DNA of 64,000 nucleotides from Hymenobacter gelipurpurascens (lineage in GTDB: Bacteria > Bacteroidota > Bacteroidia > Cytophagales > Hymenobacteraceae), in NCBI RefSeq assembly GCF_900187375.1, contig NZ_FYEW01000001.1:806001-870000 (forward strand), in the 5' to 3' direction. Each line of letters starts with the position of its first letter. Positions within the stretch are counted from its first letter, which is position 1. Under the pieces are notes generated by a model, which was not told the DNA's origin, did not search any database, and worked only from the letters and a program-made list of their open reading frames with translations. Positions 1,771 to 60,573 of this stretch are shown here, one piece after another. The position numbers and the translations under genes were made by a program.

Positions 1771-1793
1771 CTAAAACGACTGGCCTAGGCCAC

Positions 1794-4571
1794 TTACACG
1801 ACCACGTTCACCATGCGGCCGGGCACTACAATGATTTTCTTGGCCTCTTTGCCTTCGGCGAAGCGGGCCAGAATATCGGTAGCACGCACGGCGGCCTCGA
1901 TTTCGGCGGCGGTGGCAGTAGCCGGGAACTGCAGCTGCTCGCGCACCTTGCCGTTGATGGCTACTGGGTAGTTCACGGTGTCTTCCACCAGATATTCCTC
2001 CTTGAACTCGGGGTAGCTGGCCGTGCTGATGCTGCCAGCCGGGTGGCCTAGCAGCTGCCACAGCTCCTCCGCTAGGTGCGGCGCATACGGCGACACCAGT
2101 ACCACCAGCGGCTCCAGAATGGCGCGGTTATGCGTGTTCAGGGCCGTCAGCTCGTTTACCGTAATCATCAGGGCGCTGACGGTGGTGTTGAACGAGAACT
2201 TCTCGATGTCCTCTTCCACCTTCCGAATGGCCTTGTGCAGGGCCTTCAGCTCGGCGGGCTTGGGAGCCTCGTCGGTTACCCCGAAGTCGCCATCCTGGGG
2301 GTGGTAGAGACGCCAGAGCTTCTTAAGGAAGCCCGCCACGCCGCTCATGCCGTTGGTGTTCCATGGCTTGTATTGCTCCAGCGGCCCGAGGAACATCTCA
2401 TACAAACGTAGCGCGTCGGCTCCATACTGATCTACAAGTACGTCAGGGCTTACCACGTTGAACTTGCCCTTCGACATCTTCTCGACTTCCCAACCACTTA
2501 CATAACGGCCATCATCTTCGAGAATAAACTCAGCCGAAGCGTAGTCAGGGCGCCACTTCTTGAAGGCTTCGGTGTCCAGAACATCGTTATTCACAATGTT
2601 CACATCGACGTGCAAAGCGGTGGTTTCATGCTGGTCTTTCTTGCCAAGTGTAACGAACGTGTTGGTGCCGTTGATACGGTACACGAAGTTCGAGCGGCCC
2701 AGGATCATGCCCTGGTTGATGAGCTTCTGGAAGGGCTCAGCGGCCGTTACCAGGCCTAGATCTTTGAGGAAGAGATGCCAAAAGCGGGAGTAGAGCAAGT
2801 GGCCCGTAGCGTGCTCTGCACCACCGAGATATAAGTCTACATTCTGCCAATACTGCTCGGCTTCCTGGCCTACAAAACGCTCGTTGTTTTGTGGGTCCAT
2901 GTAGCGCAGGTAGTACCACGAGGAGCCGGCCCAGCCGGGCATGGTGCTCAGCTCGTACTCGTACTGGCCTTTGTACTTCCAGTCTTTGGCGCGGCCCAGG
3001 GGTGGCTCGCCGGTTTCGGTGGGCTTGTACTCATCGATTTCCGGGAGCACCAGCGGAAGGTCGGCTTCAGCTACGCCGTAGGCCACTCCATCCTTATAGT
3101 AAATCGGGATAGGCTCACCCCAGTAGCGCTGGCGGCCAAAGATGGCGTCGCGGATACGGAAGTTGGTTTTGCCCTTTCCAATGCCGCGCTGCTCCAGCTC
3201 CTGAATCAGGATTTGGGTAGCCTCTTTGTAACCTTTGCCTTCGATGAGGCCGTGCAGGTAGGTGCCTTCCTTGGTCGGGTCGGCCTGTTCCTCGATTTGC
3301 TGCTGATCTACCACCTGCACGATGGGCAAGTCGAAGTGCTTGGCAAATACGTAGTCGCGCTGGTCGCCGGAGGGTACGGCCATTACGGCGCCGGTGCCGT
3401 AGCCCGCCAGCACGTAGTCAGCAATCCAGATCTGAATGGGCTCCCCGCTGAACGGGTTGAGGCCGTAGCTGCCAGTGAAAGCACCCGAAACGGTTTTGGT
3501 ATCGGCCATCCGGTCGCGCTCCGAGCGGCGCTTGGTGGCATCAATGTATTCCTGAATAGTTTCCTGCTGCTCCGGCGTCGTCAGCTCTTTCACCAGCTCG
3601 TGCTCCGGGGCCAGCACCAGGAACGTAGCGCCGTAAATAGTGTCCACGCGGGTGGTGTAGACCTTGATTTGGGCGCTTTCGTGGCCTTGCACCGAGAAGG
3701 TCACTTCGGCCCCAATAGACTTGCCAATCCAGTTACGCTGCATCTCCTTCACCGCCTCGGGCCAATCGATAGTGTCGAGGCCTTGCAGGAGGCGGTCGGC
3801 GTAGGCAGTGATGCGCAGGTTCCACTGCGGCATCAACCGACGTTCCACGGGGAACCCTCCGCGCTCGGAGAGGCCATCTTTCACCTCATCATTCGAGAGC
3901 ACCGTGCCTAGGCCCGCGCACCAGTTCACGTAGGTGTCTGACTGGTAGGCCAGTCGGTAGGGGTGCACGGCCAATAAGCGCTGCTTTTCGCTCATCATCT
4001 GCCACTGGCCCGCCGTGAAATCGTGGCGCTCTTCCTCGTCGCCGGCGGCGCGCAAGCCCCGGCTACCACCTTCGGCGAACTTGTCGAGGAGGGTTTTCAG
4101 CGGCTCGGCGCGGTCGGTATCGAGGTTGTACCAACTATTGAACAGCTTTAGGAAGATCCATTGCGTCCATTTGTAGTAGCTGGGGTCGGAGGTACGCACT
4201 TCGCGGCTCCAGTCGTAGCTAAAGCCCAGCGAGCTAAGCTGTTCGATGTAGCGGGCAATGTTCTCGCGGGTGGTTTTCTCAGGGTGCTGGCCGGTCTGGA
4301 TGGCGTACTGCTCGGCGGGAAGGCCAAACGAGTCGAAACCCATGGGGTGCAGCACGTTAAAGCCCTGCAGCCGCTTGTAGCGCGTGACAATATCGGAGGC
4401 GATGTAGCCGAGGGGGTGGCCTACGTGCAAGCCCGCGCCGCTGGGGTACGGGAACATGTCCAGCACGTAGTATTTGGGCTTCTCGGAGGCGTTATCGGCC
4501 TTGAAGGTGTTGTGCTCTTTCCAGTGGGCTTGCCACTTCTTCTCGATATCCTGGGGATGGTAGCCGGGCAT
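1794..4571 (-). CDS. leuS: Leucine--tRNA ligase
   Basis: This 925-residue class I aminoacyl-tRNA synthetase charges tRNA-Leu with leucine in the cytoplasm. The HIGH signature appears as HVGH (residues 49-52, inside [16 protein letters not shown]) and KMSKG lies near residues 696-700. The editing (CP1) domain sits between them, with [19 protein letters not shown] and the [16 protein letters not shown] loop. The anticodon-binding domain follows ([20 protein letters not shown], then [17 protein letters not shown]). The length is long, as usual for Bacteroidota LeuRS, which carry insertions before KMSKS. The ATG at 4571 gives [14 protein letters not shown], a normal start. A TAATTTCG box on the minus strand (4604-4611) is a possible promoter -7 element. 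Confidence 0.98.
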
Positions 4572-4933
4572 GGGCAGTCGGTAATACGATGGTTCGGAAC
4601 GGGCGAAATTACGGAAAAACAGGCGCGACTGGGCTTTTTTGTATAAGTATGGGGCCGTAAGAAGTAAAAGACGGGCCCGTAGCGTATAGCCGAAACAGCA
4701 TACAGAAGAAATTACTGATGCTGAACGGTATAGAGACGCAACATCCTGCGTCTTCGTGTAGAACGATAATCAGAACAACTGCCCCAGTCCGATTCGAGGT
4801 ACATACCTTCTGCAACGCCTGTACGCCACAAGTGCGTCTCTACACCATTTACCATACGCAGCCTCTGCTAGCACAAGCCAACACTGGCCTAGCTCAGCCG
4901 TAAGGAATGAGACCCACTTAAACCCTGCTGCTG
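4572..4933. other. Intergenic region with degenerate AGAGACGCAA repeats
   Basis: No gene is seen in these 362 bp between leuS and the divergent DUF389 gene. Positions 4730-4756 hold a decayed copy of the hairpin AGAGACGCAA-catc-TTGCGTCTCT that is intact at 16076-16099, and a half copy (GTGCGTCTCTAC) lies at 4832-4843. A copy of the over-represented motif ACTGGCCTAG is at 4883-4892. Confidence 0.5.
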
Positions 4934-7216: not shown

Positions 7217-7240
7217 ACACTTGTGTCGAGTGGCCTAGGG

Positions 7241-7907: not shown

Positions 7908-8531
7908 ATGAATTTCCTCGCCCACCTGTTGCTCTCCGGCTCGCCGGCCACCACGCCCGATTACGATGATATCGTGGTCGGCAACTTTGCCGCCGAAGCC
8001 GTGCGCGGCCAGGCCGGACTACTGGCCTACACGCCCGCCGTGCAGCGCGGCATCCGGCTCCACCGCTTCATCGATACTTTCACCGACAGCCACCCCGTAG
8101 TACGGCGCACGACTGCCCGCCTGCGCGAAGCCGGACTCGGCAAGTGGGCCGGCGTGGTATCCGATGTGGCCTACGACCACCTGCTGGCCCGCGACTTCTC
8201 CCAGTACCACTACGATGCCGCCGAACCACTCCCGGCCTTCGCCCAACGCCAATACGCCCTGCTGCACGCCCGCCGCCACGAGCTGCCGGAGCGCCTGCAA
8301 CAGATGTTGCACTATATGCGCCAGGGCGACTGGCTCACCGGTTACGCCCACCCAACTGGCCTAGAGCAAGCCTTGTTAGGCCTCTCGCGCCGCGTACCCG
8401 CCGCCACGGTGCTAGCCTCCGGAGCAGCGGCGTTTCTGAAGGAACTGCCAGCGTATGAGGCGGATTTCGCGGAGTTTTGGCCGGAGTTGAGGGCGGCAGT
8501 TCTATTGCATGTTGGGCAGAATTTTAAATAA
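7908..8531 (+). CDS. Acyl carrier protein phosphodiesterase (AcpH/DUF479)
   Basis: The product matches the AcpH family, which removes the phosphopantetheine arm from acyl carrier protein and is distantly related to HD hydrolases. It opens MNFLAHLLLSGSP and continues with DIVVGNFAAEAVRGQ, VQRGIRLHRFIDTFTDSHP and VSDVAYDHLLARDFSQY, the metal-binding H/D pattern of the family. I chose the ATG at 7908 rather than an in-frame TTG 21 bp upstream, because family members begin MNFLAH. The protein is 207 residues, close to the usual size. The end overlaps the longest possible reading of the next gene but not its preferred start. Confidence 0.85.
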   Translation: MNFLAHLLLSGSPATTPDYDDIVVGNFAAEAVRGQAGLLAYTPAVQRGIRLHRFIDTFTDSHPVVRRTTARLREAGLGKWAGVVSDVAYDHLLARDFSQYHYDAAEPLPAFAQRQYALLHARRHELPERLQQMLHYMRQGDWLTGYAHPTGLEQALLGLSRRVPAATVLASGAAAFLKELPAYEADFAEFWPELRAAVLLHVGQNFK

Positions 8532-8541
8532 TTATGTACCA

Positions 8542-15060: not shown

Positions 15061-15807
15061 ATGCAACCATCCACCCAAGAGCAAACCGATAAAGAGAAAC
15101 AACTTGCGGCTACCGCGGCCATGCGCTGGGTGCGCGATGGTATGGTGATAGGCCTAGGAAGCGGCAGTACAGCCGCGCAGTTCATCACGCTGCTAGGGCA
15201 GGAACTGCGCGATGGCAAACTGCGCATACAAGCCACCGCTACGTCCGTGGCAAGCGAAACGCTGGCGCGCAGCTTCGGAATTCCGCTGCTGGAGCCACGG
15301 CGGGGGCTTCGGTTTGATCTGACCGTTGACGGAGCCGATGAGCTTGACGACCAGCTGCGCCTTATCAAAGGCGGGGGCGGGGCGCTGCTGCGGGAAAAGG
15401 TACTGGCCACAGCTTCCGACTACCTGCTGATTATTGCCGACTCCTCTAAGCTGGTGCCGCAGCTAGGCCAGTTTCCGTTGCCGCTGGAAGTGGTGCCATT
15501 TGCGCTGCCTTGGGTGCTGGATGCGGTGGACGCGCTGGGCGGCGCGCCTACAGTGCGTCCGGATAAACAGAACAACCAGGAAATGGCGCGCACCGACCAA
15601 GGCAACCTGCTGGTGGACTGTCATTTCAAGGCACTGGCAGACCCCGAGCAGCTGGCGCTCCAACTGCAGGCTATTCCCGGCATCGTAGAGCACGGCCTGT
15701 TTCTGGGCCTAGCAAGTGCCGTGCTGATAGGAAAGGGTGAGCAGGTCGTAGTCAGAAAAAGAGGAGCAGAGCCTGTAAATGCCATGCAATTCACTGAGCT
15801 TCCCTAA
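15061..15807 (+). CDS. rpiA: Ribose-5-phosphate isomerase A
   Basis: This 248-residue enzyme interconverts ribose 5-phosphate and ribulose 5-phosphate in the pentose phosphate pathway. The phosphate-binding loop GLGSGSTAAQF (about residues 31-41), the catalytic TVDGADELD segment and LIKGGGGALLREKV are all present. Later motifs include IIADSSKLV and the GLFLGLAS ending of the family. The length is normal for RpiA. It is encoded opposite to the gnd-zwf-pgl run that starts 350 bp downstream, which together form a pentose phosphate neighbourhood. The start MQPSTQEQTDKEKQLAATAA fits the family. Confidence 0.97.
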   Translation: MQPSTQEQTDKEKQLAATAAMRWVRDGMVIGLGSGSTAAQFITLLGQELRDGKLRIQATATSVASETLARSFGIPLLEPRRGLRFDLTVDGADELDDQLRLIKGGGGALLREKVLATASDYLLIIADSSKLVPQLGQFPLPLEVVPFALPWVLDAVDALGGAPTVRPDKQNNQEMARTDQGNLLVDCHFKALADPEQLALQLQAIPGIVEHGLFLGLASAVLIGKGEQVVVRKRGAEPVNAMQFTELP

Positions 15808-19944: not shown

Positions 19945-20356
19945 ATAGTGTTTTCTTGGTGTGATAGTGGCCTAGGAAGGCAGAAGTGGCGGCGAAAAGC
20001 TAGTAAATGTTTATTAACGGGAGGGAAGCCCGCCCGAAAGTACCCAAGCCCCAGGAGCTGAACGGTAGCCTGGGGTGTAGCGGACCGAAACCTGTGAAAG
20101 CGTACTCCGGATGCTCTTACGTATGGAGAGGGAATGGGGCCAGCACAACAGCAGGAATCTCAGCAAAACCCTGGAATAGTACCGGTCAGGCCTATCGGGG
20201 AGGCGCTTGCTGAAGTCCCAAAATGGCTGCTGATTGCTTCCTGAGAAGTAGGATAGCTGGCCGAGAACCTGCACCTTGGAGTGCCTTGCCTGGAGCTGCG
20301 GCAACCTGCCGAGGCGTACGTGCGTCTCAAGCATCTGCCCACTTTTCCTGTGCTCT
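19945..20356. other. Intergenic region without a recognised gene
   Basis: These 412 bp lie between the divergent gnd and aldo/keto reductase genes and must hold both promoters. No plausible coding frame is seen. Two GC-rich hairpins can be drawn near 20020-20080: GGGAGGG/CCCGCCC, and GCCCCAGG pairing with CCTGGGGT. One copy of AGTGGCCTAG lies at 19966-19975. An unannotated leader or small RNA is possible but unproven. Confidence 0.4.
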
Positions 20357-21358: not shown

Positions 21359-21437
21359 AAGTGGCCTAGGCCTATCCCGGCGTGTCATGCATTTGCAACT
21401 GCAAGGGATAATACGTCTGGATAGGCATAGGCCACTT
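21359..21437. repeat. Inverted repeat after the aldo/keto reductase
   Basis: Two 19-bp arms, starting AAGTGGCCTAGGCCTATCC at 21359-21377 and ending at 21437, match with one mismatch around a 41-bp loop. The arms contain the over-represented GGCCTAG motif. It lies between two convergent genes (stops at 21346 and 21459) and may help end transcription, though the T-run is short. Confidence 0.75.
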
Positions 21438-23867: not shown

Positions 23868-24166
23868 AGAATAGCAGGGAAGGTTGGCCTTCTGGCTAGG
23901 CGTTGTTACGATGAACAGATGCAGGTCATCTGGATTGGTAGCGTGCTACCCACGTAGGCCAGTCAGATCAGGTAGCGAAGCTAAGAATTCTGATAGGTAG
24001 ATGAGGCTAGGCCACCTAGGCCAGTCTGGAAGTGGCCTACGCTCCACTGAGCCAGCCAATGCTTTAGTGAGCAACCTCGTGGGGTGTGCCGTAAAAACTT
24101 CCTGCACCGGTGGCTACATAAACCGCCGCAGTTTCTACCTTATGACGATTTCACTTGTCTCCCTGC

Positions 24167-26602: not shown

Positions 26603-26640
26603 ATAGTATAGTGGCCTAGAAGATTGCTTTAAGTATAGAT

Positions 26641-37079: not shown

Positions 37080-37195
37080 CACACCGCACGTCATCCTGAG
37101 TGCAACGAAGGATCTTGTCACGCCTAAACGACTGGCCTAGCGCCTTGTGCTGACGTGACAAGATCCTTCGCAAGCTCAGGATGACGTGCGGTGTG
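37080..37195. repeat. Long inverted repeat, GTCATCCTGAG/GGATCTTG type, copy 4
   Basis: Arms near 37080-37122 and 37154-37195 share CACACCGCACGTCATCCTGAG, a mismatched middle (TGCAA against CTTG) and CGAAGGATCTTGTCACG. The loop contains AACGACTGGCCTAGCGCC, almost the same sequence as in the loop of the 47902 copy in opposite orientation. Confidence 0.93.
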
Positions 37196-46792: not shown

Positions 46793-47860
46793 ATGGATAA
46801 GATTGCATTAGTAGTAGGGGCAAGCGGCATCATTGGCAGCAACCTGGCCCAAGAGCTACTCGCGAATGGCTGGACAACGTATGGCCTGGCCCGCAAGCCC
46901 AACACTGAAATAGCCGGCCTACAGCCCGTAGCTGCCGATTTGCTCAACGAAACTGGCCTAGAGACTGCCCTGGCCGATGTAGCACCCACACACGTGTTCA
47001 TCACCAGCTGGATGCGTAATGACACAGAGGCGGAGAACATCCGCGTGAACAGCGCTATGGTGCGCAATCTGCTCTCGGTACTCTCACCCAAAAAATCGGT
47101 GCAGCATGTGGCGCTTGTTACGGGCCTGAAGCATTATCTGGGGCCATTTGAGGCCTACGCGAAGGAAGGCGTACTGCCGCCCACGCCTTTGCGGGAGGAG
47201 CAGCCCCGTCTGCCCATCGAGAACTTCTATTATGCTCAGGAAGATGAGGTGTATGCCGCCGCCGAGCGCGACGGGTTTACTTGGAGCATTCACCGCCCGC
47301 ACACCATCATCGGCAAAGCCGTTGGCAACCAGATGAATATGGGTACCACCCTGGCCGTGTATGCCACCCTCTGCAAGGAAACCGGCCGGCCCTTCCGCTG
47401 GCCTGGCTCCAAGGCGCAGTGGGAAGGCCTCTCCGACGTAACCGATGCCCGCGTGATAGCCAAACAGCTAATCTGGGCCGCCACCACGGAAGAGGCAAAG
47501 AACGAGGCCTACAACGTGGTGAATGGTGATGTATTCCGCTGGAGCTGGCTCTGGGGCCGGATTGCCGACTGGTTTGGAGTAGAAGCGGTGGGCTTCGATG
47601 GCACCATCCATCCGCTGGAAAGAGAGGAAACCTTTGATCAGACTTTATGGGGACTTATCAGACGCCGTTCTAATCTGGTTGAAGCCGACCTCAACCGTCT
47701 GGTCTCGCCCTGGCACACCGACCTGGACCTAGGCCGCCCCATTGAAGTCATGACCGATATGAAGAATAGTCGGAAACGGGGCTTCACCGTGTTCCAGAGC
47801 ACGGAAGACTCTTTTTTCGACCTCTTTAAGCAGCTGCGAGAAGACCGCCTGATTCCATAA
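46793..47860 (+). CDS. PRISE-like short-chain dehydrogenase (5-beta-reductase family)
   Basis: The 355-residue protein has the NADPH-binding motif VVGASGIIGSNLAQELL at residues 7-23. The PRISE pattern TGLKHYLGPFEAY (catalytic Lys) and ENFYYAQEDEV (catalytic Tyr) is followed by WSIHRPHTIIGKAVGN. Plant members reduce enones such as progesterone or iridoid precursors. Bacterial members' substrates are mostly unknown. The start at 46793 fits the Rossmann fold. A long inverted repeat follows 42 bp after the stop. Confidence 0.88.
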   Translation: MDKIALVVGASGIIGSNLAQELLANGWTTYGLARKPNTEIAGLQPVAADLLNETGLETALADVAPTHVFITSWMRNDTEAENIRVNSAMVRNLLSVLSPKKSVQHVALVTGLKHYLGPFEAYAKEGVLPPTPLREEQPRLPIENFYYAQEDEVYAAAERDGFTWSIHRPHTIIGKAVGNQMNMGTTLAVYATLCKETGRPFRWPGSKAQWEGLSDVTDARVIAKQLIWAATTEEAKNEAYNVVNGDVFRWSWLWGRIADWFGVEAVGFDGTIHPLEREETFDQTLWGLIRRRSNLVEADLNRLVSPWHTDLDLGRPIEVMTDMKNSRKRGFTVFQSTEDSFFDLFKQLREDRLIP

Positions 47861-47901: not shown

Positions 47902-48022
47902 ACAAAAGGCACGTCATCCTGAGCCTAAGCGAAGGATCTTCTTAGGTTAGCACGAGGCGCTAGGCCAGTCGTTCAATCGTAAGAAGATCCTTCGCTTAGG
48001 CTCAGGATGACGTGCCTTTTGT
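47902..48022. repeat. Long inverted repeat, GTCATCCTGAG/GGATCTTCTTA type, copy 6
   Basis: Two 43-bp arms (47902-47944 and 47980-48022) are perfect reverse complements. They read ACAAAAGGCACGTCATCCTG, AGCCTAAG and CGAAGGATCTTCTTA. The loop holds GCGCTAGGCCAGTCGTT, the inverse of the loop in the 37080 copy. Confidence 0.97.
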
Positions 48023-48046: not shown

Positions 48047-49093
48047 CTAGGCCACTACTTCGTAGATCATCACGGGCTGGGCCTTGTTTTTGAGCGTCAC
48101 TTCCTTGATTGGCCGGCACTGAAACGACTCTTTCACGCGCTGGTAAGTGGCTTCCGTGATGATGATCTGGCCGGGGAGAGCTGCGGATTGCAGGCGCTGG
48201 CTTACGTTCACGGTGTCTCCGATAACGGTGTAATCCAGCCTTTTGAGGGAGGCCGAGCCGATGTTGCCCGACACCATTTCGCCGGTATTGATGCCGATGC
48301 TGACCTGCGGGTGGTACGGCTGACCATCGGGCAGCGTGTCTTGGTTAGCCTGCACCACGGCGCGGGCAGCCAGGGCGGCATCCATGGCGCGGTCGAGGTG
48401 GTATTCGCCCCGGAACACGGCCATCACGGCGTCGCCCATAAACTTATCTACGTAGCCGCCCTGCGCAATGATCTCCTTCACCATCTGGTCGAAGTAGGTG
48501 TTGAGCATCGACACAATGTTGGCCGGTGGCAGGACCTCCGAAAGCGACGTGAAGCCGCAGATATCAATGAAGGCCACGGTGGCTTCCACGGTTTCGCTGG
48601 CCATCAGCTTGTTCTCGAAGCCCGGCCGGCCCATGAAGTTGAGCACCGTCTCATCCACGTACATGCGCAGTATGTTGTTCTCCTGGATGGCCTGCAGGGT
48701 TTCGCGCAGCTGCCGCACCTGCTGGGCGGTTTTCTCCATCGTCAGCTCCAGATCCTGAAAATCCACGGGCTTGCACACGAAGTCGAAGGCGCCGCGGTTC
48801 ATGGCCGTCCGGATGTTCTCCATATCGCCATACGCCGAAACCATTACGGTTTTGATGATGGGGTTGGCTTCTGGCATCTTGCTGAGCAGCGTCAGGCCAT
48901 CCATCACCGGCATATTGATGTCGGAGAGGATGATGTCCAAGTCGGGGTGGGTGCGCACCGTATCCAGGGCCTCCTGGCCGTTGCTGGCAAACACGAACTC
49001 GTACACGTTTTCCCGGATTTTGCGCCGGAATTTCTGCTTGATGAGCAGCTCTAAGTCTGCTTCATCATCTACTACCAGTATTTTAGTTTTCAT
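48047..49093 (-). CDS. Response regulator fused to class III adenylate/guanylate cyclase
   Basis: The 348-residue protein has an N-terminal receiver domain (ILVVDDEADLELL, LSDINMPVMDGLTLL with the phospho-Asp, KPVDFQDLEL). A helical linker (about 125-165) leads to a class III cyclase domain: VAFIDICGFTSLSEVL (metal Asp), YVDKFMGDAVMAVF and LDYTVIGDTVNVSQRLQ. The Lys in DKFMGDA and the Asp in LDYTVIGD suggest ATP as substrate, so cAMP is the likely product. Phosphorylation by the nearby histidine kinase should control it. The start at 49093 overlaps the upstream regulator by 11 bases. Confidence 0.92.
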   Translation of the reverse strand: MKTKILVVDDEADLELLIKQKFRRKIRENVYEFVFASNGQEALDTVRTHPDLDIILSDINMPVMDGLTLLSKMPEANPIIKTVMVSAYGDMENIRTAMNRGAFDFVCKPVDFQDLELTMEKTAQQVRQLRETLQAIQENNILRMYVDETVLNFMGRPGFENKLMASETVEATVAFIDICGFTSLSEVLPPANIVSMLNTYFDQMVKEIIAQGGYVDKFMGDAVMAVFRGEYHLDRAMDAALAARAVVQANQDTLPDGQPYHPQVSIGINTGEMVSGNIGSASLKRLDYTVIGDTVNVSQRLQSAALPGQIIITEATYQRVKESFQCRPIKEVTLKNKAQPVMIYEVVA

Positions 49094-49478
49094 GGCTCGC
49101 GAGCAAGGTCAGTTTTTCTTTCAGGGCCGCGAAGTCAACCGGTTTGGTCAGGAAATCATTGGCTCCTAGCTGCATAGCCTCTTTGTAGCTGTCGTCGTCG
49201 CTGTAGGCCGTAATCATCATCACCTGGGGCGGGGTGGGCGGCGGAGCTAGGTACTGCTGCTTGATGTGCTTGAGCAGCTCTAGGCCACTCATGCCGGGCA
49301 TATTAATGTCGGACAATATCAGGACTACCTCGGAGGCATGCTCACGCAGATACGCTAGAGCTTCTTCGCCCGAGTACGCAAAAGAAAAGGAAAATAAGCC
49401 ACTGCGAATTTCCCGGCGGAAGCGTTGCTCAAAGAGTGTGCGCACATCCATCTCGTCGTCTACTACCAGTATCTTCAT
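49083..49478 (-). CDS. Single-domain response regulator
   Basis: From the ATG at 49478 (MKILVVDDEMDVRTLFEQR) the product is 131 residues, a stand-alone receiver. The acidic pair DDE, the phospho-Asp in LILSDINMPGMSGLELL, the Thr in MMITAYSDDDSYKE and the Lys in FLTKPVDFAALKE are all present. It ends with MALASHEN-like residues overlapping the cyclase start by 11 bases, so both are made from one message. It may shuttle phosphate or control kinase activity. A start three codons upstream (MHPMKIL) is possible. Confidence 0.9.
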   Translation of the reverse strand: MKILVVDDEMDVRTLFEQRFRREIRSGLFSFSFAYSGEEALAYLREHASEVVLILSDINMPGMSGLELLKHIKQQYLAPPPTPPQVMMITAYSDDDSYKEAMQLGANDFLTKPVDFAALKEKLTLLASHEN

Positions 49479-49680: not shown

Positions 49681-51084
49681 TTATTTTGTTCTTTCCGCCA
49701 CTCCATCACTCGGGGGCAGTGTAATGATGAATTCGGTGCCTTCTCCTTCGTTGGTTTCCAGCGTGAGCGTGCCGCCGTGGCCTTTCGTGATGATGTCATA
49801 GCTCAACGAGAGGCCTAGGCCAGTTCCCTCACCGGTCGGCTTCGTGGTGAAAAACGGCTGAAAGATTTTCTGCTGTACCCCCACTGGGATGCCGGTGCCG
49901 TTGTCGCGCACCCGCACCTCCACCTCCCCCGATGGGATATGGCGCGTACTCACGCTAACGGTGGGCGTGTAGCCCTGCGGACAGCATTCCTTTTTCTTTT
50001 GCACGGCATAAAAGGCGTTGGTAAACAGGTTCAGGAGCACCCGCCCCAGGTCCTGCGAAACCGCTTCCACCTTGCCCAGGTTGAGGTCGAAATCCGTGAC
50101 GAGCGTAGCGTTGAAGGACTTGTCTTTGGCGCGCAAGCCGTGGTAGGCCAGGCGCAAATATTCATCGGCCAGCGTATTGAGGTCTACTTCCTGCCGCTCC
50201 CCGGTACTGGCACGGCTGTGCTCCAGCATGCCCCGCACAATGCTGGCGGCCCGCTGCCCATGATGGGTAATTTTCTGGAGGTTCTTTTTCAGATCGTTGA
50301 GCAGTTCTGCTTCTAGCTCGGGGTCGCGGGTGGGGCTTTGCCGTTCGTCATCAAGCTCATCGATCAGCTCTGCTGATACATCGGAGAAGTTCGTGACAAA
50401 GTTGAGCGGGTTCTGAATCTCGTGGGCAATGCCCGCCGTGAGCTCACCCAGGGAGGCCATTTTCTCACTCTGGATCAGTTGGTTTTGCGTGATTTTCAGC
50501 TCCGTAAGAGCCTCGCGCAGTTCTTCGGCTTGTTTGGTAAGCGTAGCTGTGCGCTCACCTACCAAGCGTTCTAGCTCGGCGTTTTGGGCTTCTATCAGGC
50601 GCTTGGCTTTCTCTTCCTCTTCGCGTTCCAGGCGTTCTTTTTCCAGCTGTTTCTTCTGGTTGCGGGCAATCAGAACGAAGGTGAAAAGCCAGATAAGGGC
50701 AAACCCCTTGGACGTGTCGAAGGCGTCGTCGTACTCTTTCAGGAAGTGGCCGCCCGTAAGCTCCAGTTCCAGCTCAATGGCCGAGTACAGCACGTAGGGT
50801 ACCATGGCCAGCAGGAGCGTGCGCGCCGGGCGGTAGGTTTGCAGCCGAAGCAGCACGGCCAGCACCACCATAAATACCAGCAGCAGGTACATCTCGTCCA
50901 ACTGATCGGTTTTCCACCGAAACACGACGGCGATGCCATAGAGCAACGCTCCTGGCAGCCAGATCCAGGAGAGCAGCCCGTTCCAGCGTGGCATGCGGGT
51001 TGGGAGGTCGAAAAACCGGCGCAACGCCCGCACAATCAGCAGCGCAACCGGTATAACGAACAAGATGGAGGTATTGACGCTCAT
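49681..51084 (-). CDS. Membrane sensor histidine kinase
   Basis: From the ATG at 51084 (MSVNTSILFVIPVALLIV) the product is 467 residues. There are about five hydrophobic helices in the first 145 residues with no extracytoplasmic sensor domain, then a coiled coil (KKQLEKERLEREEEEKAKR). HisKA follows with MASLGELTAGIAHEIQNPLN (H221), and the ATPase domain has LLNLFTNAFYAVQKK, VRDNGTGIP and PFFTTKPTGEGTGLGLSLSY. It probably senses membrane state or a small ligand and phosphorylates the two regulators 193 bp downstream. A longer frame to 51144 is less likely. Confidence 0.92.
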   Translation of the reverse strand: MSVNTSILFVIPVALLIVRALRRFFDLPTRMPRWNGLLSWIWLPGALLYGIAVVFRWKTDQLDEMYLLLVFMVVLAVLLRLQTYRPARTLLLAMVPYVLYSAIELELELTGGHFLKEYDDAFDTSKGFALIWLFTFVLIARNQKKQLEKERLEREEEEKAKRLIEAQNAELERLVGERTATLTKQAEELREALTELKITQNQLIQSEKMASLGELTAGIAHEIQNPLNFVTNFSDVSAELIDELDDERQSPTRDPELEAELLNDLKKNLQKITHHGQRAASIVRGMLEHSRASTGERQEVDLNTLADEYLRLAYHGLRAKDKSFNATLVTDFDLNLGKVEAVSQDLGRVLLNLFTNAFYAVQKKKECCPQGYTPTVSVSTRHIPSGEVEVRVRDNGTGIPVGVQQKIFQPFFTTKPTGEGTGLGLSLSYDIITKGHGGTLTLETNEGEGTEFIITLPPSDGVAERTK

Positions 51085-51794: not shown

Positions 51795-52589
51795 ATGCGC
51801 CAGTACCTCGACCTCGTTCGCCACATCCTCGACCACGGAACCCGTAAAACCGACCGCACGGGCACGGGTACGCTGTCCGTATTCGGATACCAGATGCGGT
51901 TTGATTTACAGCAGGGTTTCCCGCTCGTCACAACCAAAAAGGTGCATCTGCGCAGCATCATTCATGAGTTGCTGTGGTTTCTGCGCGGCGACACGAATAT
52001 TGCCTACCTCAAGGAGCATGGCGTGAGCATCTGGGATGAGTGGGCAGATGCAAACGGCGAGCTGGGTCCCGTATATGGCAAGCAGTGGCGCGCCTGGCCC
52101 GATGGGAATGGCGGCACCATCGACCAGATCAGTGAAGTGGTGCGCCAGTTGCGGGAGCAGCCCGATTCGCGCCGCATTGTCATCTCCGCCTGGAACGTTG
52201 CCGATTTGCCGCTGATGAAATTGCAGCCCTGCCACGCGTTGGTGCAGTTCTACGTGGCCGATGGGCGCCTATCGTGCCAGCTCTACCAGCGCTCCGCCGA
52301 TGTATTTCTGGGCGTGCCGTTCAACATTGCCAGCTACGCTCTGCTGACGTTGATGCTGGCGCAAGTGAGTGGCCTAGAGCCTGGCGAATTCGTTTGGACC
52401 GGCGGCGACACCCATCTCTACAGCAACCATTTGGAGCAAGCACGTCTGCAGCTCACGCGGGAGCCCCGTATGCTCCCAAAAATGCGCCTCAACCCCGATG
52501 TGAAGGATATTTTTGGTTTCCAGTTCGATGATTTTAAGCTGGAAAACTACGACCCGTATCCTGCTATCAAGGCCCCAGTAGCCGTATAG
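51795..52589 (+). CDS. thyA: Thymidylate synthase
   Basis: The 264-residue enzyme methylates dUMP to dTMP using methylene-tetrahydrofolate. The length equals E. coli ThyA, and the nucleophile is C146 in [12 protein letters not shown]. Other signatures are [54 protein letters not shown] and [16 protein letters not shown]. It is transcribed alone. No dihydrofolate reductase gene follows, unlike in many bacteria. The ATG at 51795 fits the family. Confidence 0.98.
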
Positions 52590-53320: not shown

Positions 53321-54155
53321 ATGTTGTGATATCGGCCTGGCGAAGCTGTAGGAAAAGTGGATGTTCTGCCGAGGAGAATGTGCTGTCAGCTACCTGCCGT
53401 ACCGGACGTATGCCCGCAATATTGGCCGTAAAGACTGCTTCCGCCGCCAGCAATTCCGTAGGCTCATAGAGGCCAGGGCGCCAGGGGAGGCCTAGCGCCT
53501 GGGCCTTCGCCTGTAAATGGGCCAGCCGAACACCTGCCACGCCTCCGGCCTCCAGATCGGGGGTGTAGATGGTGCCCTCACGGATCCAAGCCACTGCAGA
53601 GGAAACGGCCTCGGCTACGTGACCCAGCCCAGACAGCAGAATCAGTTCATCGAGGTGGCGTTGCTCCCGTTCCTGCGCCGCTAGCACGTAGCTAAGCGCA
53701 TTAGGGCCTTTGCAAAAGGAAACCGCCGAAAACTGCGTTTGCACCGTTTGGGCAAAGTCAGAGGAGTGAATAGTAGTGTTAAGCGGAAGAAAGTCCTGAC
53801 AGGTTGCCAGCCAGTCGCAGTGGGTGGTAGTAGGGGTGTAAAGGCCGCCTCCGCTCCGCCACAGATGTAGGCGCACCCGCGCTACCGGAATATTATTGGC
53901 CGAAGCCAACTGGCCTAGAGTTGCGCTCAGAGTGGAGCCCGTAGCTAGCTCAGCCGGAAGGTGCAGGTTAATAGTTGCAGCAGCTCGTTGCAGGCGGTGG
54001 AGATGCTGAGGAAGGTAGCGTAGGCCTGTCTCAGCCCACACCATCGTCTCAAAGAATCCATCGTTGAAAAACAACCCGCGGTTGGGCAGCGGCAGCGCGA
54101 AGTTATCGGCTGGCAGAAGCTGGCTATTGTGCAGAAGCAGGAAGCTTGTGGCCAT
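53319..54155 (-). CDS. Class IV aminotransferase (PLP-dependent)
   Basis: The 278-residue protein is a fold-type IV PLP enzyme: PNRGLFFNDGFFETMVW, the Lys in SFCKGPNALSYVLAAQE and the phosphate-binding ELLAAEAVFTANIAGIRPV. It could be an aminodeoxychorismate lyase (folate synthesis) or a branched-chain/D-amino-acid aminotransferase. The short loop around the active site favours the lyase type, but this is uncertain. It lies just downstream of dprA on the same strand, 52 bp apart, probably in one transcript. Start ATG at 54155. Confidence 0.85.
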   Translation of the reverse strand: MATSFLLLHNSQLLPADNFALPLPNRGLFFNDGFFETMVWAETGLRYLPQHLHRLQRAAATINLHLPAELATGSTLSATLGQLASANNIPVARVRLHLWRSGGGLYTPTTTHCDWLATCQDFLPLNTTIHSSDFAQTVQTQFSAVSFCKGPNALSYVLAAQEREQRHLDELILLSGLGHVAEAVSSAVAWIREGTIYTPDLEAGGVAGVRLAHLQAKAQALGLPWRPGLYEPTELLAAEAVFTANIAGIRPVRQVADSTFSSAEHPLFLQLRQADITT

Positions 54156-54207: not shown

Positions 54208-55341
54208 CTAGTTCAGCTGAAACCGTTTGCCCGGCAACACCTTCACTACGCCCCGAAACTCCAGGCCCAGCAGGAGGGAAGCCACCTGATGCACGGGCAG
54301 TTGCGTTTTCCAGGCTACCGTATCCATGTGCTCCTCCTTCACGGCCTGCAGCACTTCCAGAATCTGGAACTCCTCAGGGCTGAAGTCGGCTGGGTCGTAG
54401 GCCGTAGGGCCTTTGAACTTGCCGTTGAGGTGCAGCGCCGCATCCCAATTAAGAAGCTGCTCTAAGTCCTTGGGCTCGGAGTACAGCGCCGCTTTGTTGG
54501 CTTTGATAAGCTCGTGGCAGCCTTCGGAAGCCGCTGAGCCCAGCGGGCCAGGTATGGCCAGCACGTCGCGGTCGTAGCCATGGGCCAGGTCGGCGGTGAT
54601 GAGGGCGCCGCCTTTGCGGGCAGCTTCCACTACCACCGTGCCGTCGGAAAGGCCCGCAATGATGCGGTTACGGGAGGGAAAGTTGTACTTGTCGGGCTGG
54701 GTGCCGAAGGGGAATTCCGTCAGTAGGCCACCCTGGCTGAGCATTTTCTCGGCGGTTTTGCGGTGGGCCGCCGGGTAGAGGACGTCTAGGCCAGTCGCCA
54801 TGACGCCCACAGTTTCCAGTCCTTCCTGCAGCGCGGCGCGGTGCGCGGCAATATCAATGCCGTAGGCCAGTCCGCTCACTACCAAAGGGAGGTGCGACAC
54901 GAAGCCTTTCACCAGCTTCTCCGTTTGCTCACGGCCGTAGTCGGTAGCCTGGCGCGTGCCCACGATGGCCACCGTTTTCGGGTGGTTGAGGTCGGCGGTA
55001 CCTTGGTAATACAGTATGGTAGGCGCATCCGGAAGCTGCTTGAGCCGCGCGGGAAACTGCTTGCTAGTATAGAACAGAATCTGCACGCCTTCCTTTTCGG
55101 CTTTCCGTAGGCCATCTTCCGCCCGCTTCAGCGCTGTGGTGCGCTCTAGGCCAGTCAGGATAGCCACCGTGGCCGGCCCGATGCCCGGAATCTTGCGCAG
55201 CTTGCCCGGCGGCAGGTGCAGCACATTCTTGGCCGAGCCGCCGTAGCTCATCAGCTGCCGCGTCAGTTGCGGCCCAATATTGGGAAATAAGGTTAGCGCG
55301 ACTTCGTGAAGGAGGGTATCGTCGGGAGTAAAAATAGACAT
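54208..55341 (-). CDS. dprA: DNA processing protein DprA
   Basis: The 377-residue protein protects incoming single-stranded DNA in natural transformation and loads RecA. The Rossmann-like core has VAIVGTRQATDYGREQ, SGLAYGIDIAAHRAAL, FPSRNRIIAGLSDGTVVVEAA and GALITADLAHGYDRDVLAIPG. The N-terminal helix-hairpin-helix (LPPGKLRKIPGIGPATVAIL) and the C-terminal winged-helix DprA domain are both present. The ATG at 55341 gives MSIFTPDDTLLHEVAL. It stands with the aminotransferase. No comEC or other competence genes are nearby. Two copies of the over-represented 10-mer are inside it (54786, 55146). Confidence 0.96.
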   Translation of the reverse strand: MSIFTPDDTLLHEVALTLFPNIGPQLTRQLMSYGGSAKNVLHLPPGKLRKIPGIGPATVAILTGLERTTALKRAEDGLRKAEKEGVQILFYTSKQFPARLKQLPDAPTILYYQGTADLNHPKTVAIVGTRQATDYGREQTEKLVKGFVSHLPLVVSGLAYGIDIAAHRAALQEGLETVGVMATGLDVLYPAAHRKTAEKMLSQGGLLTEFPFGTQPDKYNFPSRNRIIAGLSDGTVVVEAARKGGALITADLAHGYDRDVLAIPGPLGSAASEGCHELIKANKAALYSEPKDLEQLLNWDAALHLNGKFKGPTAYDPADFSPEEFQILEVLQAVKEEHMDTVAWKTQLPVHQVASLLLGLEFRGVVKVLPGKRFQLN

Positions 55342-56015: not shown

Positions 56016-58700
56016 ATGTCACTCCCCACCGCCAGCCACGTCCGCCAGCAATTCCTGGATTTCTTCGCTTCTAAAGGCCACCACATCGTGCCCTCAGCTC
56101 CCATTGTGGTGAAGGACGACCCCACGCTGCTGTTCATCAACTCAGGCATGGCCCCGTTCAAGGACTACTTCCTTGGCAACAAGCCCGCCCCGTTTAAGCG
56201 CATTGCCGACACACAGAAGTGCCTGCGCGTATCGGGCAAGCACAACGACCTGGAAGAGGTAGGCTACGATACCTACCACCACACCATGTTCGAGATGCTC
56301 GGCAACTGGTCGTTTGGTGATTATTTCAAGAAAGACGCCATTGCCTGGGCCTGGGAGCTGCTCACGGAAGTATATAAGCTGCCGAAAGACCGTCTCTACG
56401 TTACCTATTTTGAGGGAGACGCCGGCGACAAACTAGCCGCTGATACCGAGACCCAGGACCTGTGGCGTCAGTACACCACCGACGACCGGATTCTGCCCGG
56501 CAACAAGAAGGACAACTTCTGGGAAATGGGCGACACCGGCCCCTGCGGCCCCTGCACCGAAATCCACATCGATCTGCGCGACGAGGCGGAAGTAGCCCAG
56601 AAATCGGGCCGCGAGCTAGTCAACGCCGACCATCCGCAGGTGGTGGAAGTATGGAACAACGTGTTCATGGAGTTCCAGCGCCTGGCCGACAAGAGCCTCG
56701 TGAAGCTGCCCGCTCAGCACGTAGACACCGGCATGGGCTTCGAGCGCCTGATGATGGCCGTGTCGGGTGTGAAGTCAAACTACGACACCGATGTATTCCA
56801 GCCGCTCATTCAGTTCATTGCCAAGGAGGTAGGCCTGGAGTACCACGGCACGGCCCCGGCCACCGTGAACGACCAGCCCGCCACGGAGAACGAGAAGACG
56901 GATATTGCCATCCGCGTCATTGCCGACCACATCCGCACCATCAGCTTCACCATTGCCGATGGTCAGCTGCCCAGCAACGTGAAAGCCGGGTACGTGATTC
57001 GCCGGATTCTGCGCCGTGCCGTGCGCTACGCATTTTCGTCGCTAGGCCAGAAGCAGCCCTTCCTGTATAAGATTGTGCCGATTCTGGCTGATCAGATGCG
57101 TAACATATTCCCCGAGTTGAAGGCCCAGCAGCAGTTTGTGCAGCGCGTGATTGAGGAGGAAGAAATTGCCTTCCTGAAAACCCTGGAAAACGGCCTGCGC
57201 CGCCTCGAAACGCTGGAAGAAGGCTTCCGCCAGAATGGCAACCGCATCGATGGCAAAACCGCCTTCGAGCTATCGGATACGTTCGGCTTCCCGCTTGACC
57301 TCACCGCCCTTATCGCCCGCGAAAAAGGCCTGACGGTGGACGAGGAAGGCTTCAAGAAAGAGCTGGATGCCCAGAAAAACCGCTCCCGCAATGCCCAGGA
57401 GGCCGAGCAGAGCGACTGGACCATTGTGCGCGAGTCGGAAGAGCAGCCCGCGTTCGTGGGCTACGACCAGGAGGAGGCCCCGGCCCGCATCCTGCGCTAC
57501 CGCCGCACCGATCGCAAAGGCAAAACTGAGTACCAGGTGGTGCTTGATCAGACGCCTTTCTACGCCGAATCGGGCGGACAGATAGGGGACACGGGCTACC
57601 TGGAGTCACCGCTGAGCAAAGTGCGCGTGCTGGACACCAAGAAGGAAAACGACCTCATTGTGCACACGGTTCTGGAACTACCGGAAGATGTAAATGGCGA
57701 GTTCCTGGCTCGCTACGACCACGCCCGCCGTGCCCAGATTCAGCGCAACCACACCGCTACGCACTTGCTGCAGGCCGCTTTGCGCGAAGTAGTGGGTTCG
57801 CACGTAGCTCAGAAAGGCTCGTTGGTGAATGAGAAGCTGCTGCGCTTCGACTTCAGCCACTTCACCAAAGTAACCGACGACCAGCTACGCCAGGTGGAAA
57901 CCCTGGTGAATGCCCGCATCCGCCAGCAAATCCCGCTGGACGAGCGCCGCAACGTGCCCATTGATGACGCCAAAAACCTGGGCGCTACAGCCTTGTTCGG
58001 CGAGAAGTATGGCGAGTTTGTGCGCGTCATTACCTTCGACCGCGACTTCTCCGTGGAGCTGTGCGGCGGCACCCACGTGCGCACCACCGGCGACATTGGC
58101 TTCTTCAAAATCACCTCGGAAAGTGCCGTAGGCGCCGGTGTGCGTCGTATCGAGGCCGTAACCGCTGAGGCCGCCGAAGCCTTCGTGAATCAGCAACTGG
58201 ACCTGCTAGGCCAGGTGCGCGAGGCCCTGGGCAACCCCCAGCATCTCATCCCGAGCATCGAGAAGCAAAACGAGGAAATTGCCAACCTGCGCAAGCAGAT
58301 TGAGCAGTTCGCCCAACAGAGCATCAATCAGCAGAAAGACCAGCTTGTAGGCCAGGTGAAGCCTCTCAACGGCGTAAACTTCCTCGCCGCTCAGGTGCAA
58401 GCTTCCTCAGCTGATGGTCTTAAAACCCTGGCCTTCAACCTGCGCCAGTCGGTTCCGAATTTGGTGGCCGTGCTGGGTGCTGAAATTGATGGCAAGCCCC
58501 AACTGGCCGTGATGCTGGATGACGAGCTGGCCAAAAGCGGCAAACTGAACGCCAGCACGCTGGTACGCGAGCTGGCCAAGGAAATCCAGGGCGGTGGCGG
58601 CGGTCAGCCGTTCTTCGCTACGGCCGGCGGCAAGAACGTAAGTGGCCTAGCGGCGGCCATTGGTAAAGCTGAGGAGCTGATCAGCAAGGATATGGCCTAG
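56016..58700 (+). CDS. alaS: Alanine--tRNA ligase
   Basis: The 894-residue class II synthetase charges tRNA-Ala and edits Ser/Gly mischarging. Catalytic-core motifs include LLFINSGMAPFKDYFLG, TQKCLRVSGKHNDLEEVG and FWEMGDTGPCGPCTEIH. The editing domain has HTATH (about residues 579-583) and CGGTHV. The C-Ala domain ends with GGGGQPFFATAGG. I chose the ATG at 56016 (MSLPTASHVRQQFLDFF), which fits the family; a TTG-started frame at 55935 gives an unlikely extension. The stop codon is the TAG in ATGGCCTAG, part of the over-represented GGCCTAG motif. Confidence 0.98.
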   Translation: MSLPTASHVRQQFLDFFASKGHHIVPSAPIVVKDDPTLLFINSGMAPFKDYFLGNKPAPFKRIADTQKCLRVSGKHNDLEEVGYDTYHHTMFEMLGNWSFGDYFKKDAIAWAWELLTEVYKLPKDRLYVTYFEGDAGDKLAADTETQDLWRQYTTDDRILPGNKKDNFWEMGDTGPCGPCTEIHIDLRDEAEVAQKSGRELVNADHPQVVEVWNNVFMEFQRLADKSLVKLPAQHVDTGMGFERLMMAVSGVKSNYDTDVFQPLIQFIAKEVGLEYHGTAPATVNDQPATENEKTDIAIRVIADHIRTISFTIADGQLPSNVKAGYVIRRILRRAVRYAFSSLGQKQPFLYKIVPILADQMRNIFPELKAQQQFVQRVIEEEEIAFLKTLENGLRRLETLEEGFRQNGNRIDGKTAFELSDTFGFPLDLTALIAREKGLTVDEEGFKKELDAQKNRSRNAQEAEQSDWTIVRESEEQPAFVGYDQEEAPARILRYRRTDRKGKTEYQVVLDQTPFYAESGGQIGDTGYLESPLSKVRVLDTKKENDLIVHTVLELPEDVNGEFLARYDHARRAQIQRNHTATHLLQAALREVVGSHVAQKGSLVNEKLLRFDFSHFTKVTDDQLRQVETLVNARIRQQIPLDERRNVPIDDAKNLGATALFGEKYGEFVRVITFDRDFSVELCGGTHVRTTGDIGFFKITSESAVGAGVRRIEAVTAEAAEAFVNQQLDLLGQVREALGNPQHLIPSIEKQNEEIANLRKQIEQFAQQSINQQKDQLVGQVKPLNGVNFLAAQVQASSADGLKTLAFNLRQSVPNLVAVLGAEIDGKPQLAVMLDDELAKSGKLNASTLVRELAKEIQGGGGGQPFFATAGGKNVSGLAAAIGKAEELISKDMA

Positions 58701-59579: not shown

Positions 59580-59604
59580 TTTTCTTCACCCATCCCCATA
59601 TTTA

Positions 59605-60573
59605 ATGCGCATTTCTACTTTCCTGATTACCGCTGGCCTGCTCACTGGCCTAGCCACCACCGCTTCGGCACAAACTTTCACGGACCCCGGCGCCTACAAT
59701 AACTTTATCGTGAGTGAGCAGCGGGCTATGCTCAAGAAAAACCTGCGCTACATCAGCAAATCGGCGCACTCAGATAATGAGAAGAAGATTGATGCCAAGC
59801 GCCAGGACCTGATCAAGCAAACGGAAGCTTCTCTGAACAAAGTGGCCAAAATGCCGGCTTTCCAGGACGACAAAGGCTTCAAGGAGCAGACGACAGAAGC
59901 GTTTTACCGGCTGCTGAAAGTGTACTCCGAAGACTACAAGGCCGTGGATATGCTGGCGGCTACCCGCACGGCTACCATCGAGAACATGGAGCAGTACTTC
60001 AAGCTGCAGGAAATTGCTGAAGCCAAGATGCAGGTCGTTAATGACTCCGTGGATGCAGCGCAGAAGCGATTTGCCAAGCGCCACAACATGACTATTTCGG
60101 AGGATCCGGAGGGCAAACGCTTGGCCAACTACATGCGCCAGGTATCGGAAGTGAATACTTATCAGCACAAGGTATATCTGGCACAATTTCGCATTGAGAA
60201 AGCCAATGCCCGACTTACGGATGCGCTAAATGCCCAGGACGCCGCCGCGTTTGAGCAGGCCCGTTTACAGCTGGTGCAGGATGCCCAAACCGCCACCACC
60301 GAGTTAAGCGCCATTGCGCCCTTCCGGGGCAAAGATGCCCAGTACCGGGATGCAGCCCGGAATCTGGTGAAGTTCCACGCCGCTTTCTCTGCCAATCAGG
60401 CTCCCCAGATGAAGGACCTGATGGAGCGTAAAGACCGCCTCACCAAGGCCGATGCCGATAAATTCAACGGCTTCATCAATACCTATAACTCGCAGAACCA
60501 GAAGCTGATTGCGGCCTACAACCAAGCCGGCAATACCTTCCAGGCCACCTACATTCCGGTTTTCAACGATTAG
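59605..60573 (+). CDS. Secreted helical protein (LIC11966 surface-protein-like)
   Basis: The 322-residue product has a signal peptide (MRISTFLITAGLLTGLATTASAQ) at the ATG at 59605. The mature part is almost all helical and charged, with repeated YISKSAHSDNEKKIDAKRQ and VDAAQKRFAKRHNMTI segments, and ends with YIPVFND. It resembles the LIC11966 family surface proteins as I recall them, but this is uncertain and no function is known. It is 25 bp after the TonB-like gene on the same strand and 40 bp before the next small gene. Confidence 0.65.
   Translation: MRISTFLITAGLLTGLATTASAQTFTDPGAYNNFIVSEQRAMLKKNLRYISKSAHSDNEKKIDAKRQDLIKQTEASLNKVAKMPAFQDDKGFKEQTTEAFYRLLKVYSEDYKAVDMLAATRTATIENMEQYFKLQEIAEAKMQVVNDSVDAAQKRFAKRHNMTISEDPEGKRLANYMRQVSEVNTYQHKVYLAQFRIEKANARLTDALNAQDAAAFEQARLQLVQDAQTATTELSAIAPFRGKDAQYRDAARNLVKFHAAFSANQAPQMKDLMERKDRLTKADADKFNGFINTYNSQNQKLIAAYNQAGNTFQATYIPVFND

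Follow-up and report, generated by a model that had tools for sequence, protein, structure and literature searches.

The origin of short words iterated throughout bacterial genomes is debated between transfer drive, methylation-linked repair and selection, and has been studied mainly in Neisseria, Haemophilus and cyanobacteria. DNA uptake in Neisseria and Haemophilus uses a pilus engine, and the uptake signal sequences (USS) of Haemophilus are flanked by AT tracts. The fall from the perfect word to one mismatch is steep in the published systems, with values of 92-fold in Haemophilus influenzae and 82-fold in Neisseria gonorrhoeae (PMC1939737), and an orientation bias has been reported for uptake sequences (PMC2346458). 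Within the Bacteroidota, Riemerella transforms with ComEC, DprA, ComF and RecA together with novel surface proteins (PMC8459023). The present analysis concerns a 64-kb stretch of the Hymenobacter gelipurpurascens genome (hereafter the window; the genome is labelled G000), in which a 10-mer, ASTGGCCTAG (S being C or G), recurs on both strands. With a probability of roughly one half, we regard this word as one present-day dialect of a motif by which Hymenobacteraceae recognise self DNA, iterated and spread by biased transmission through an uptake- or recombination-linked drive.

Over the complete genome (5,060,948 bases, 9 contigs), ASTGGCCTAG has 2,630 copies (1,313 on the forward strand, 1,317 on the reverse), and the reversed pattern used as a control has 5 + 5 = 10. 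The window contains 34 exact copies, 21 forward and 13 reverse, where 0.19 are expected and where 100 dinucleotide-preserving shuffles gave at most 1. The over-represented 10-mer had first been pointed out in a sequence-only reading of the window, which named a genome-wide ratio above about 10 over a third-order Markov model as support; in a 409-kb sample, the two forms AGTGGCCTAG and ACTGGCCTAG are enriched 84-fold and 74-fold over that model, and the whole-genome count, which the reading had named as its refuting test, likewise shows an excess that is real and genome-wide. All 29 copies listed in that reading exist, one start (52369) being corrected to 52368, and its count of at least 29 holds, with five minus-strand copies overlooked (1785, 15463, 48047, 49280 and 62536). 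The pairs of copies it placed in dprA (sites 54786 and 55146 within 54208-55341) and in the M1 peptidase gene (sites 36121 and 36166 within 34279-37053) were found there. Its remarks on composition need amendment, as the GC content is 57% rather than about 60%, and CTAG, described there as usually rare in bacteria, is just slightly under-represented in the window (169 vs 196 expected). The copies, all exact matches, are as follows, with dprA at the end.

1779..1788, plus strand, ACTGGCCTAG, half of an inverted pair at the leuS stop codon
1785..1794, minus strand, AGTGGCCTAG, other half of the leuS-stop inverted pair
4883..4892, plus strand, ACTGGCCTAG
7229..7238, plus strand, AGTGGCCTAG
8355..8364, plus strand, ACTGGCCTAG
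15463..15472, minus strand, ACTGGCCTAG, orthologous places aligned in relatives
19966..19975, plus strand, AGTGGCCTAG
21360..21369, plus strand, AGTGGCCTAG
24016..24025, minus strand, ACTGGCCTAG
26610..26619, plus strand, AGTGGCCTAG
27446..27455, plus strand, ACTGGCCTAG, orthologous places aligned in relatives
28012..28021, plus strand, AGTGGCCTAG
28445..28454, minus strand, ACTGGCCTAG, orthologous places aligned in relatives
29169..29178, plus strand, ACTGGCCTAG
33163..33172, plus strand, AGTGGCCTAG, orthologous places aligned in relatives
34001..34010, minus strand, ACTGGCCTAG, orthologous places aligned in relatives
36121..36130, plus strand, ACTGGCCTAG in the M1 peptidase gene
36166..36175, plus strand, ACTGGCCTAG in the M1 peptidase gene, retained in H. 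fodinae and H. wooponensis
37131..37140, plus strand, ACTGGCCTAG, among the few sites with a repeated flank
38549..38558, plus strand, ACTGGCCTAG
38950..38959, minus strand, ACTGGCCTAG
45163..45172, plus strand, AGTGGCCTAG
46952..46961, plus strand, ACTGGCCTAG
47960..47969, minus strand, ACTGGCCTAG, repeated flank
48047..48056, minus strand, AGTGGCCTAG
49280..49289, minus strand, AGTGGCCTAG
49815..49824, minus strand, ACTGGCCTAG
52368..52377, plus strand, AGTGGCCTAG
53909..53918, plus strand, ACTGGCCTAG
54786..54795, minus strand, ACTGGCCTAG in dprA
55146..55155, minus strand, ACTGGCCTAG in dprA
58641..58650, plus strand, AGTGGCCTAG in the alanyl-tRNA synthetase gene
59644..59653, plus strand, ACTGGCCTAG
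62536..62545, minus strand, AGTGGCCTAG
54208..55341, minus strand, dprA (PF02481, PF17782; Pfam scan)

The logo obtained by iteration reads (A/g)-S-(T/a)-G-G-C-C-T-A-S, with information nearly limited to these ten positions and little in the flanks. Written as ASTGGCCTAS, the word has a chromosomal density of 0.84 per kb (355 sites in 424 kb) and no overall strand bias (175 forward vs 180 reverse, counted without reference to replication direction). Every one of the 18 chromosomal 20-kb samples has sites, 8-25 each, and their spacing is close to random (coefficient of variation 1.10). By simple longest-ORF (open reading frame) calls, which are not an annotation, intergenic DNA carries 1.89 sites per kb vs 0.51 in coding DNA; sites are densest between convergent genes, and those inside genes favour the coding strand (119 vs 55).

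Relatives of the window's genome differ sharply in the words that they carry. Among the best 80 of 523 loci matching the leucyl-tRNA synthetase (LeuRS) of the window, the closest belong to H. fodinae (96%) and H. wooponensis (95%), and these two are the only ones of 45 genomes represented by named loci to carry ASTGGCCTAG in mass (2,561 and 2,335 copies), the other 43 having 61 or fewer. A separate set of 58 relatives holds one mass carrier, with counts equal to those of H. fodinae, and at most 60 copies in each of the remainder. A mild excess over the control is seen in H. sediminis (61 vs 3) and H. mucosus (44 vs 1). The between-species comparison that the sequence-only reading had proposed gives a clade-specific motif, shared in mass with H. 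fodinae and H. wooponensis; its nature as one dialect among several was not visible from the window and emerged from the genomes of relatives.

Word discovery on 16 genome samples uncovered further words. AASCTAGST, or ASCTAGST in its shorter form, is the word of H. crusticola and H. cavernae, with 4,249 (58 reversed) and 6,051 (42 reversed) copies in the whole genomes; of the 47 genomes counted, none of the remaining 45 has more than 288. AASTATAR is the word of an uncultured Pontibacter and, among 291 genomes of the order, of three genomes in one genus of Hymenobacteraceae, with counts against the reversed pattern of 13,794/625 in G279, 7,318/748 in G311 and 6,420/846 in G238; it is weaker in two others of this genus (1,757/1,081 in G263 and 554/513 in G218), which is probably Pontibacter, and outside it none of the 291 genomes seems to exceed its own control twofold. 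The C/G position of AASTATAR is C in 73% of copies in G279, G in 94% in G311 and G in 89% in G238, a dialect difference of one base inside one genus. In a neighbouring clade, H. sp. HSC-4F20, H. latericoloratus and H. sediminis show a 6- to 7-fold enrichment of the 8-mer CCTACCCC; it is weaker than the other words, with a GGGGTAGS form at 4- to 5-fold and a small shift in the codon test, and CCTACCC was found as the word of G026. No comparable word was found in the samples of H. mucosus, H. caeli, H. duratus, G002 or G020, and none was seen in many further species in samples of 23 kb or less, a size that misses weak words. ASCTAGST and AASTATAR are 5- to 8-fold over the third-order Markov expectation, below the longer word of the window, and their contrast with the reversed control is larger than these ratios. 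ASCTAGST is a palindrome, whereas ASTGGCCTAS, AASTATAR and CCTACCCC are not. Based on genome counts and a LeuRS tree of 43 rows, the dialects follow phylogeny: the fodinae clade has a support of 100/98 and the pair H. crusticola and H. cavernae 100/100, while the fork that joins the fodinae clade to its neighbour, made up of the wordless H. mucosus and four carriers of CTACCCC, has 98/93.

Several other over-represented words were met in these relatives. GAGACGC/CGCGTCTCTA and GTAGAGA are strongly over-represented in 23 kb of H. perfusus (L097), and also in L020 and L035, and probably belong to another intergenic repeat family. In H. rigui (L028), GTCCGAC occurs 20 times vs 1.7 expected, as a repeat or another iterated word. 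TCGCGCA, 3- to 5-fold enriched in the samples of H. caeli, HSC-4F20, H. latericoloratus, H. duratus and G020, likely reflects codon usage, its flanks in H. caeli looking three-base periodic. The H. latericoloratus samples (L155-L159 and others) contain C runs of at least 9, with 96 overlapping 9-mers vs 2.1 expected.

Sites are created and kept in place. Alignment of the window to five relatives, each at about 80% DNA identity over 32-41 kb, showed the motif kept at 20/31 and 19/29 aligned sites in the two carriers (65%) and at 1/26, 0/25 and 0/26 in three non-carriers of this word (0-4%); permuted-motif controls in the five relatives gave 16/77, 10/77, 20/63, 14/71 and 15/60. At 36121, CTGG stands instead of the final CTAG in all 6 aligned relatives, H. 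fodinae and H. wooponensis included. Among 30 site comparisons with a motif-less non-carrier, 24 are without an indel and 6 have one, and sites thus arise mainly by substitution rather than by insertion. The 18 sites that differ from the non-carrier at one to three bases show 36 differences (unpolarised) of 11 of the 12 types and at all ten positions, which speaks against a repair bias due to a single lesion. H. latericoloratus carries an inverted pair of its own word at the leuS stop codon, the place of the 1779/1785 pair in the window.

The force behind the word is strong enough to decide codon choice. Of 94 coding places with Ser/Thr-Gly-Leu before C or G, 62 use the motif, 0.7 being expected from codon usage; H. 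fodinae does so in 17 of 31 places and HSC-4F20 in 0 of 23. Where a CTN leucine codon follows Ser/Thr-GGC and precedes C or G, CTA is chosen in 90% of 72 cases vs 11% elsewhere. In contexts fitting their own words, CTA makes up 94% of 79 cases in H. crusticola (19% elsewhere) and 90% of 82 in H. cavernae (12% elsewhere), and ATA 97% of 117 in the Pontibacter genome (38% elsewhere). The window's motif overrides codon choice, which is bent in a similar way by the words of these three other genomes. The tripeptide is also somewhat more frequent in the three carriers (0.89, 0.96 and 0.91 per 1000 codons vs 0.27 to 0.76 in 11 other samples), so that the same force may also shift protein sequence.

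Recognition would seem to be nearly all-or-none. The intact word is 46-fold over the Markov expectation and its one-mismatch forms are 0.6- to 3.6-fold at 8 of the 10 positions, under a Markov model that is itself inflated by the motif; mismatches are tolerated at positions 1 and 3 (5- to 6-fold), and position 10 is tight. On these values, mutation and drive would be close to equilibrium in this genome, the scaled advantage being about 4, the natural logarithm of the enrichment. The enrichment values are better evidence than a test of site completion, because the non-carrier control of that test also gave 33-93% by position, on 14-39 cases.

Some DNA of the same genome is nearly free of the motif. 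Just outside the window, a prophage-like 20-kb stretch (G000:C1:768,001-788,000; 18 kb before the window) has 0 sites vs 16.7 expected, and encodes large and small terminase subunits, HNH nucleases, a helicase loader, a repressor, a PAPS-reductase-like gene and a helicase-methyltransferase protein. In the motif-poor part of contig C4, three 20-kb samples (60 kb) have 1 site together vs 50.2 expected: L016, with the conjugation genes for TraM and a DUF4138 domain, L211, with KdpA, a K+ transporter and a UmuC-like polymerase, and L017, with a McrB-like AAA protein, a caspase-domain protein and TPR-S proteins, the genes of the latter two samples being of ion-transport, polymerase and defence-like kinds. 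The three would appear to be parts of one element. On a first look C4 was taken for a motif-free plasmid, a view abandoned when more samples revealed a mosaic, with three further samples at about 40% of normal density (20 sites vs 50.2 expected). The small contigs have 2 sites vs 16.9 expected. Within the window, unaligned DNA is denser in sites than aligned DNA (2.80/kb in 3.9 kb vs 0.62/kb); this comparison of core and accessory DNA is confounded by the poorer alignment of intergenic regions and was not used.

A search for machinery gave a mixed picture. The dprA of the window is possibly part of a competence path. The sequence-only reading had reported no other uptake gene, which may hold for the window, where 30 of the 60 ORFs of at least 150 aa were Pfam-scanned, and fails for the genome, which encodes a full-length ComEC on C1 at about 2.07 Mb. 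Around it, among 18 ORFs of at least 100 aa, no known competence protein was found among the neighbours in the nine proteins scanned, ComEC included. At 5.7 kb from comEC (L289:16395-18836) is the gene of a TonB-plug protein that has carboxypeptidase-regulatory domains; such proteins are common in Bacteroidota. In Riemerella, an outer-membrane protein with a carboxypeptidase-regulatory domain is needed for transformation (PMC8459023). Of 17 genomes, 9 have a PF00145 methyltransferase match; H. fodinae and H. wooponensis belong to these, and G000 has none. PF01555 has a match in 12 of 18 genomes, with none in H. fodinae, H. wooponensis, H. crusticola or H. cavernae; the sole PF01555 match of G000 is the helicase-methyltransferase protein of the prophage. 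Neither of these two families, the only methyltransferase families searched, is common to the three carriers. The DUF5689 domain, a lead from Riemerella, has some match in 20 of 32 genomes, 17 of them over the cut-off, and the seven strongest matches adjoin a protein taken as SusD-like, judged by its start. Compact DUF5689 proteins with this neighbour occur in six carriers (L231-L236; G059, G065, G026, G081, G082 and G279), the seventh match being in one other genome and the other carriers being without such a match.

A word that is clade-specific, symmetric, borne by substitution, kept, nearly all-or-none and absent from newcomers fits a word favoured in transmission, and uptake sequences behave in this manner (PMC2397512, PMC1939737). 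A sequence-specific reader would give DNA with an intact motif a transmission advantage, and would most likely belong to a path of DNA uptake or recombination that does without a type IV pilus and ends in ComEC, DprA and RecA. ComEC and DprA, both looked for as traits of an uptake-sequence system, are encoded in the genome. Copying would spread sites newly born by mutation through the population and replace broken ones, and a change in reader specificity would make the whole genome drift to a new word. The motif works like both a DNA uptake sequence (DUS) and a highly iterated palindrome (HIP); it is not filed with the former because the pilus engine was tested and not found, nor with the latter because the window word is no palindrome and neither of the two methyltransferase families searched is common to its carriers. 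The likeness to HIP1 or uptake sequences drawn in the sequence-only reading was right in kind, the word being strand-symmetric, genome-wide and spread by substitution, and the choice among roles that it left open is the one weighed here. The evidence favours, without proving, a transmission bias of the uptake or recombination type over cytosine methylation.

Several observations weigh against such a transmission drive. Site completion is unrelated to how far away the next site lies (0.47, 0.43, 0.43, 0.36 and 0.47 with growing distance), whereas uptake of long fragments predicts a fall near another site; this independence, the chief objection to long-fragment uptake, would better fit short tracts or a local conversion process. 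H. wooponensis carries the motif in just 3 of 11 Ser/Thr-Gly-Leu places, a small sample. The motif-poor mobile DNA may merely be recent; recent arrival would explain it under every hypothesis, and it thus supports slow acquisition of words and not one mechanism. ComEC is present in 18 of 18 genomes tested, carriers and non-carriers alike, and hence explains no difference between them. PF00437 (PilB/PilT/secretion ATPases) was over the cut-off in none of the 10 dialect carriers tested; in 17 genomes its one match over the cut-off is in Adhaeribacter soli, which has no word in mass, and among the carriers G097 and G026 have sub-threshold matches. Since Riemerella has a machinery of its own, a lack of pili need not, by analogy, preclude uptake in Hymenobacter. 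The DUF5689 lead failed, with no match in G000, H. wooponensis or G097, and the domain was dropped as a marker of Riemerella-type uptake. No paper on Hymenobacter competence was found in the open-access literature.

The strongest competitor, which we nevertheless consider rather improbable, is a HIP1-like process in which a motif-specific methyltransferase and mismatch repair create and keep the words with no transfer between cells (Elhai's model). A density near one per kb, spread by substitution, a completion independent of neighbouring sites, as would fit a local process, and the GGCC and CTAG cores all suit it; GGCC and CTAG are recognised by known methyltransferases. Alternate words in relatives are likewise seen in cyanobacteria (PMC4390886). 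On the other side stand the lack of any PF00145 match in G000 and of PF01555 in H. fodinae or H. wooponensis, the only PF01555 protein of G000 lying inside a prophage, as well as the non-palindromic nature of three of the words and differences that are not limited to positions beside one base. In addition, sites should under this model saturate at about one per 1000 nt (PMC4390886), and no such completion trend is seen here.

A site for a chromosome-organising or repair protein (a nucleoid protein, a topoisomerase or an SMC loader), each copy being directly selected, is a clearly less probable alternative. It would agree with sites in all chromosomal samples, their absence from mobile DNA and the inverted pairs; it would have thousands of weakly selected sites switch together, since neighbouring clades at about 80% DNA identity use another word, and it is hard to reconcile with the lack of overall strand bias, the near-random spacing and the presence of the motif in codons at most permitting places. 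Slightly less probable again is a Chi-like hotspot, by which motif-bearing DNA ends would be spared from degradation and recombined, driving the motif up. The near all-or-none recognition of 8-10 bases, the species-specific words favoured in homologous DNA, a drive that needs no uptake receptor and the strand skew in 2 of 4 H. fodinae samples (7/1 and 13/4) are in its favour. Chi itself is strongly strand-biased, whereas in G000 the word has overall strand symmetry, by counts made without reference to replication direction, and 20-kb samples are mixed; one dialect is palindromic, and the motif density is several times that of Chi. Finally, that the motif is the tail of a REP (repetitive extragenic palindromic) or transposon repeat family, or a product of odd composition, can practically be dismissed, although Hymenobacter genomes commonly have intergenic repeats and repeated flanks adjoin two copies of the window, because just 16 of 338 ASTGGCCTAS sites have a similar flank elsewhere within the same 404-kb sample, contrary to the enrichment confined to one repeat family that the sequence-only reading had named as refuting its claim, and because the information is nearly confined to ten positions and the reversed control is 10 vs 2,630.

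Two REP-like intergenic repeats are indeed present in the window (about 29046-29156 and 47890-48030), the second containing a copy of the motif, and both match other Hymenobacter genomes at many places on both strands. The window also encodes, at 41844-42962, a 372-aa protein with a type I restriction HSDR_N domain. It has no Rfam match at the gathering score and no tRNA.

Under the transmission drive, we tentatively go one step further, to a claim that we hold somewhat less probable than its opposite: the Hymenobacteraceae may possess a pilus-independent recognition of self DNA, whose reader switches often enough for neighbouring clades to have rewritten thousands of sites, so that every clade would have a genetic password of its own and gene flow would meet a barrier. 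To our knowledge such a system would be the first in Bacteroidota, no earlier report of a motif of this kind in the phylum having been found in the open-access literature. Neighbouring clades with different words, and others with none visible, provide ready-made before-and-after comparisons among environmental bacteria. Should the reader prove to be a protein of uptake or recombination, the words would be a clue to how pilus-less Bacteroidota tell self from foreign DNA.

Among described systems, Riemerella differs in its DUF5689 marker, which has no match in the window's genome, and no uptake sequence is described for it in the available part of PMC8459023. The cyanobacterial HIP1 resembles the present motif in its genome-wide distribution at about one site per kb and in the other words of some relatives, and differs in that HIPs are palindromes with cognate methyltransferases (PMC4390886), whereas here just ASCTAGST is palindromic and neither tested family is common to the carriers. 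With the USS of Pasteurellaceae, the motif shares accumulation by point mutation and a steep fall from the perfect word to one mismatch (PMC1939737), here from 46-fold to about 1- to 4-fold at 8 of 10 positions, with expectations computed differently from those of that paper. USS one-mismatch forms stay over-represented (PMC1939737), while most forms are near background here, and the present logo is without flanking AT tracts. Compared with the DUS of Neisseriaceae, the words are others, with a C/G wobble, and three of the four found here are non-palindromic, with no common core; no type IV pilus ATPase was found in the carriers tested, and within a single genus adjacent clades have differing words or show none. 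The likeness to DUS is nonetheless extensive (PMC3630211, PMC2397512), and comprises thousands of short copies, dialects following phylogeny, mostly intergenic and permissive core-genome places, close inverted pairs, high conservation, and foreign DNA that lacks the word.

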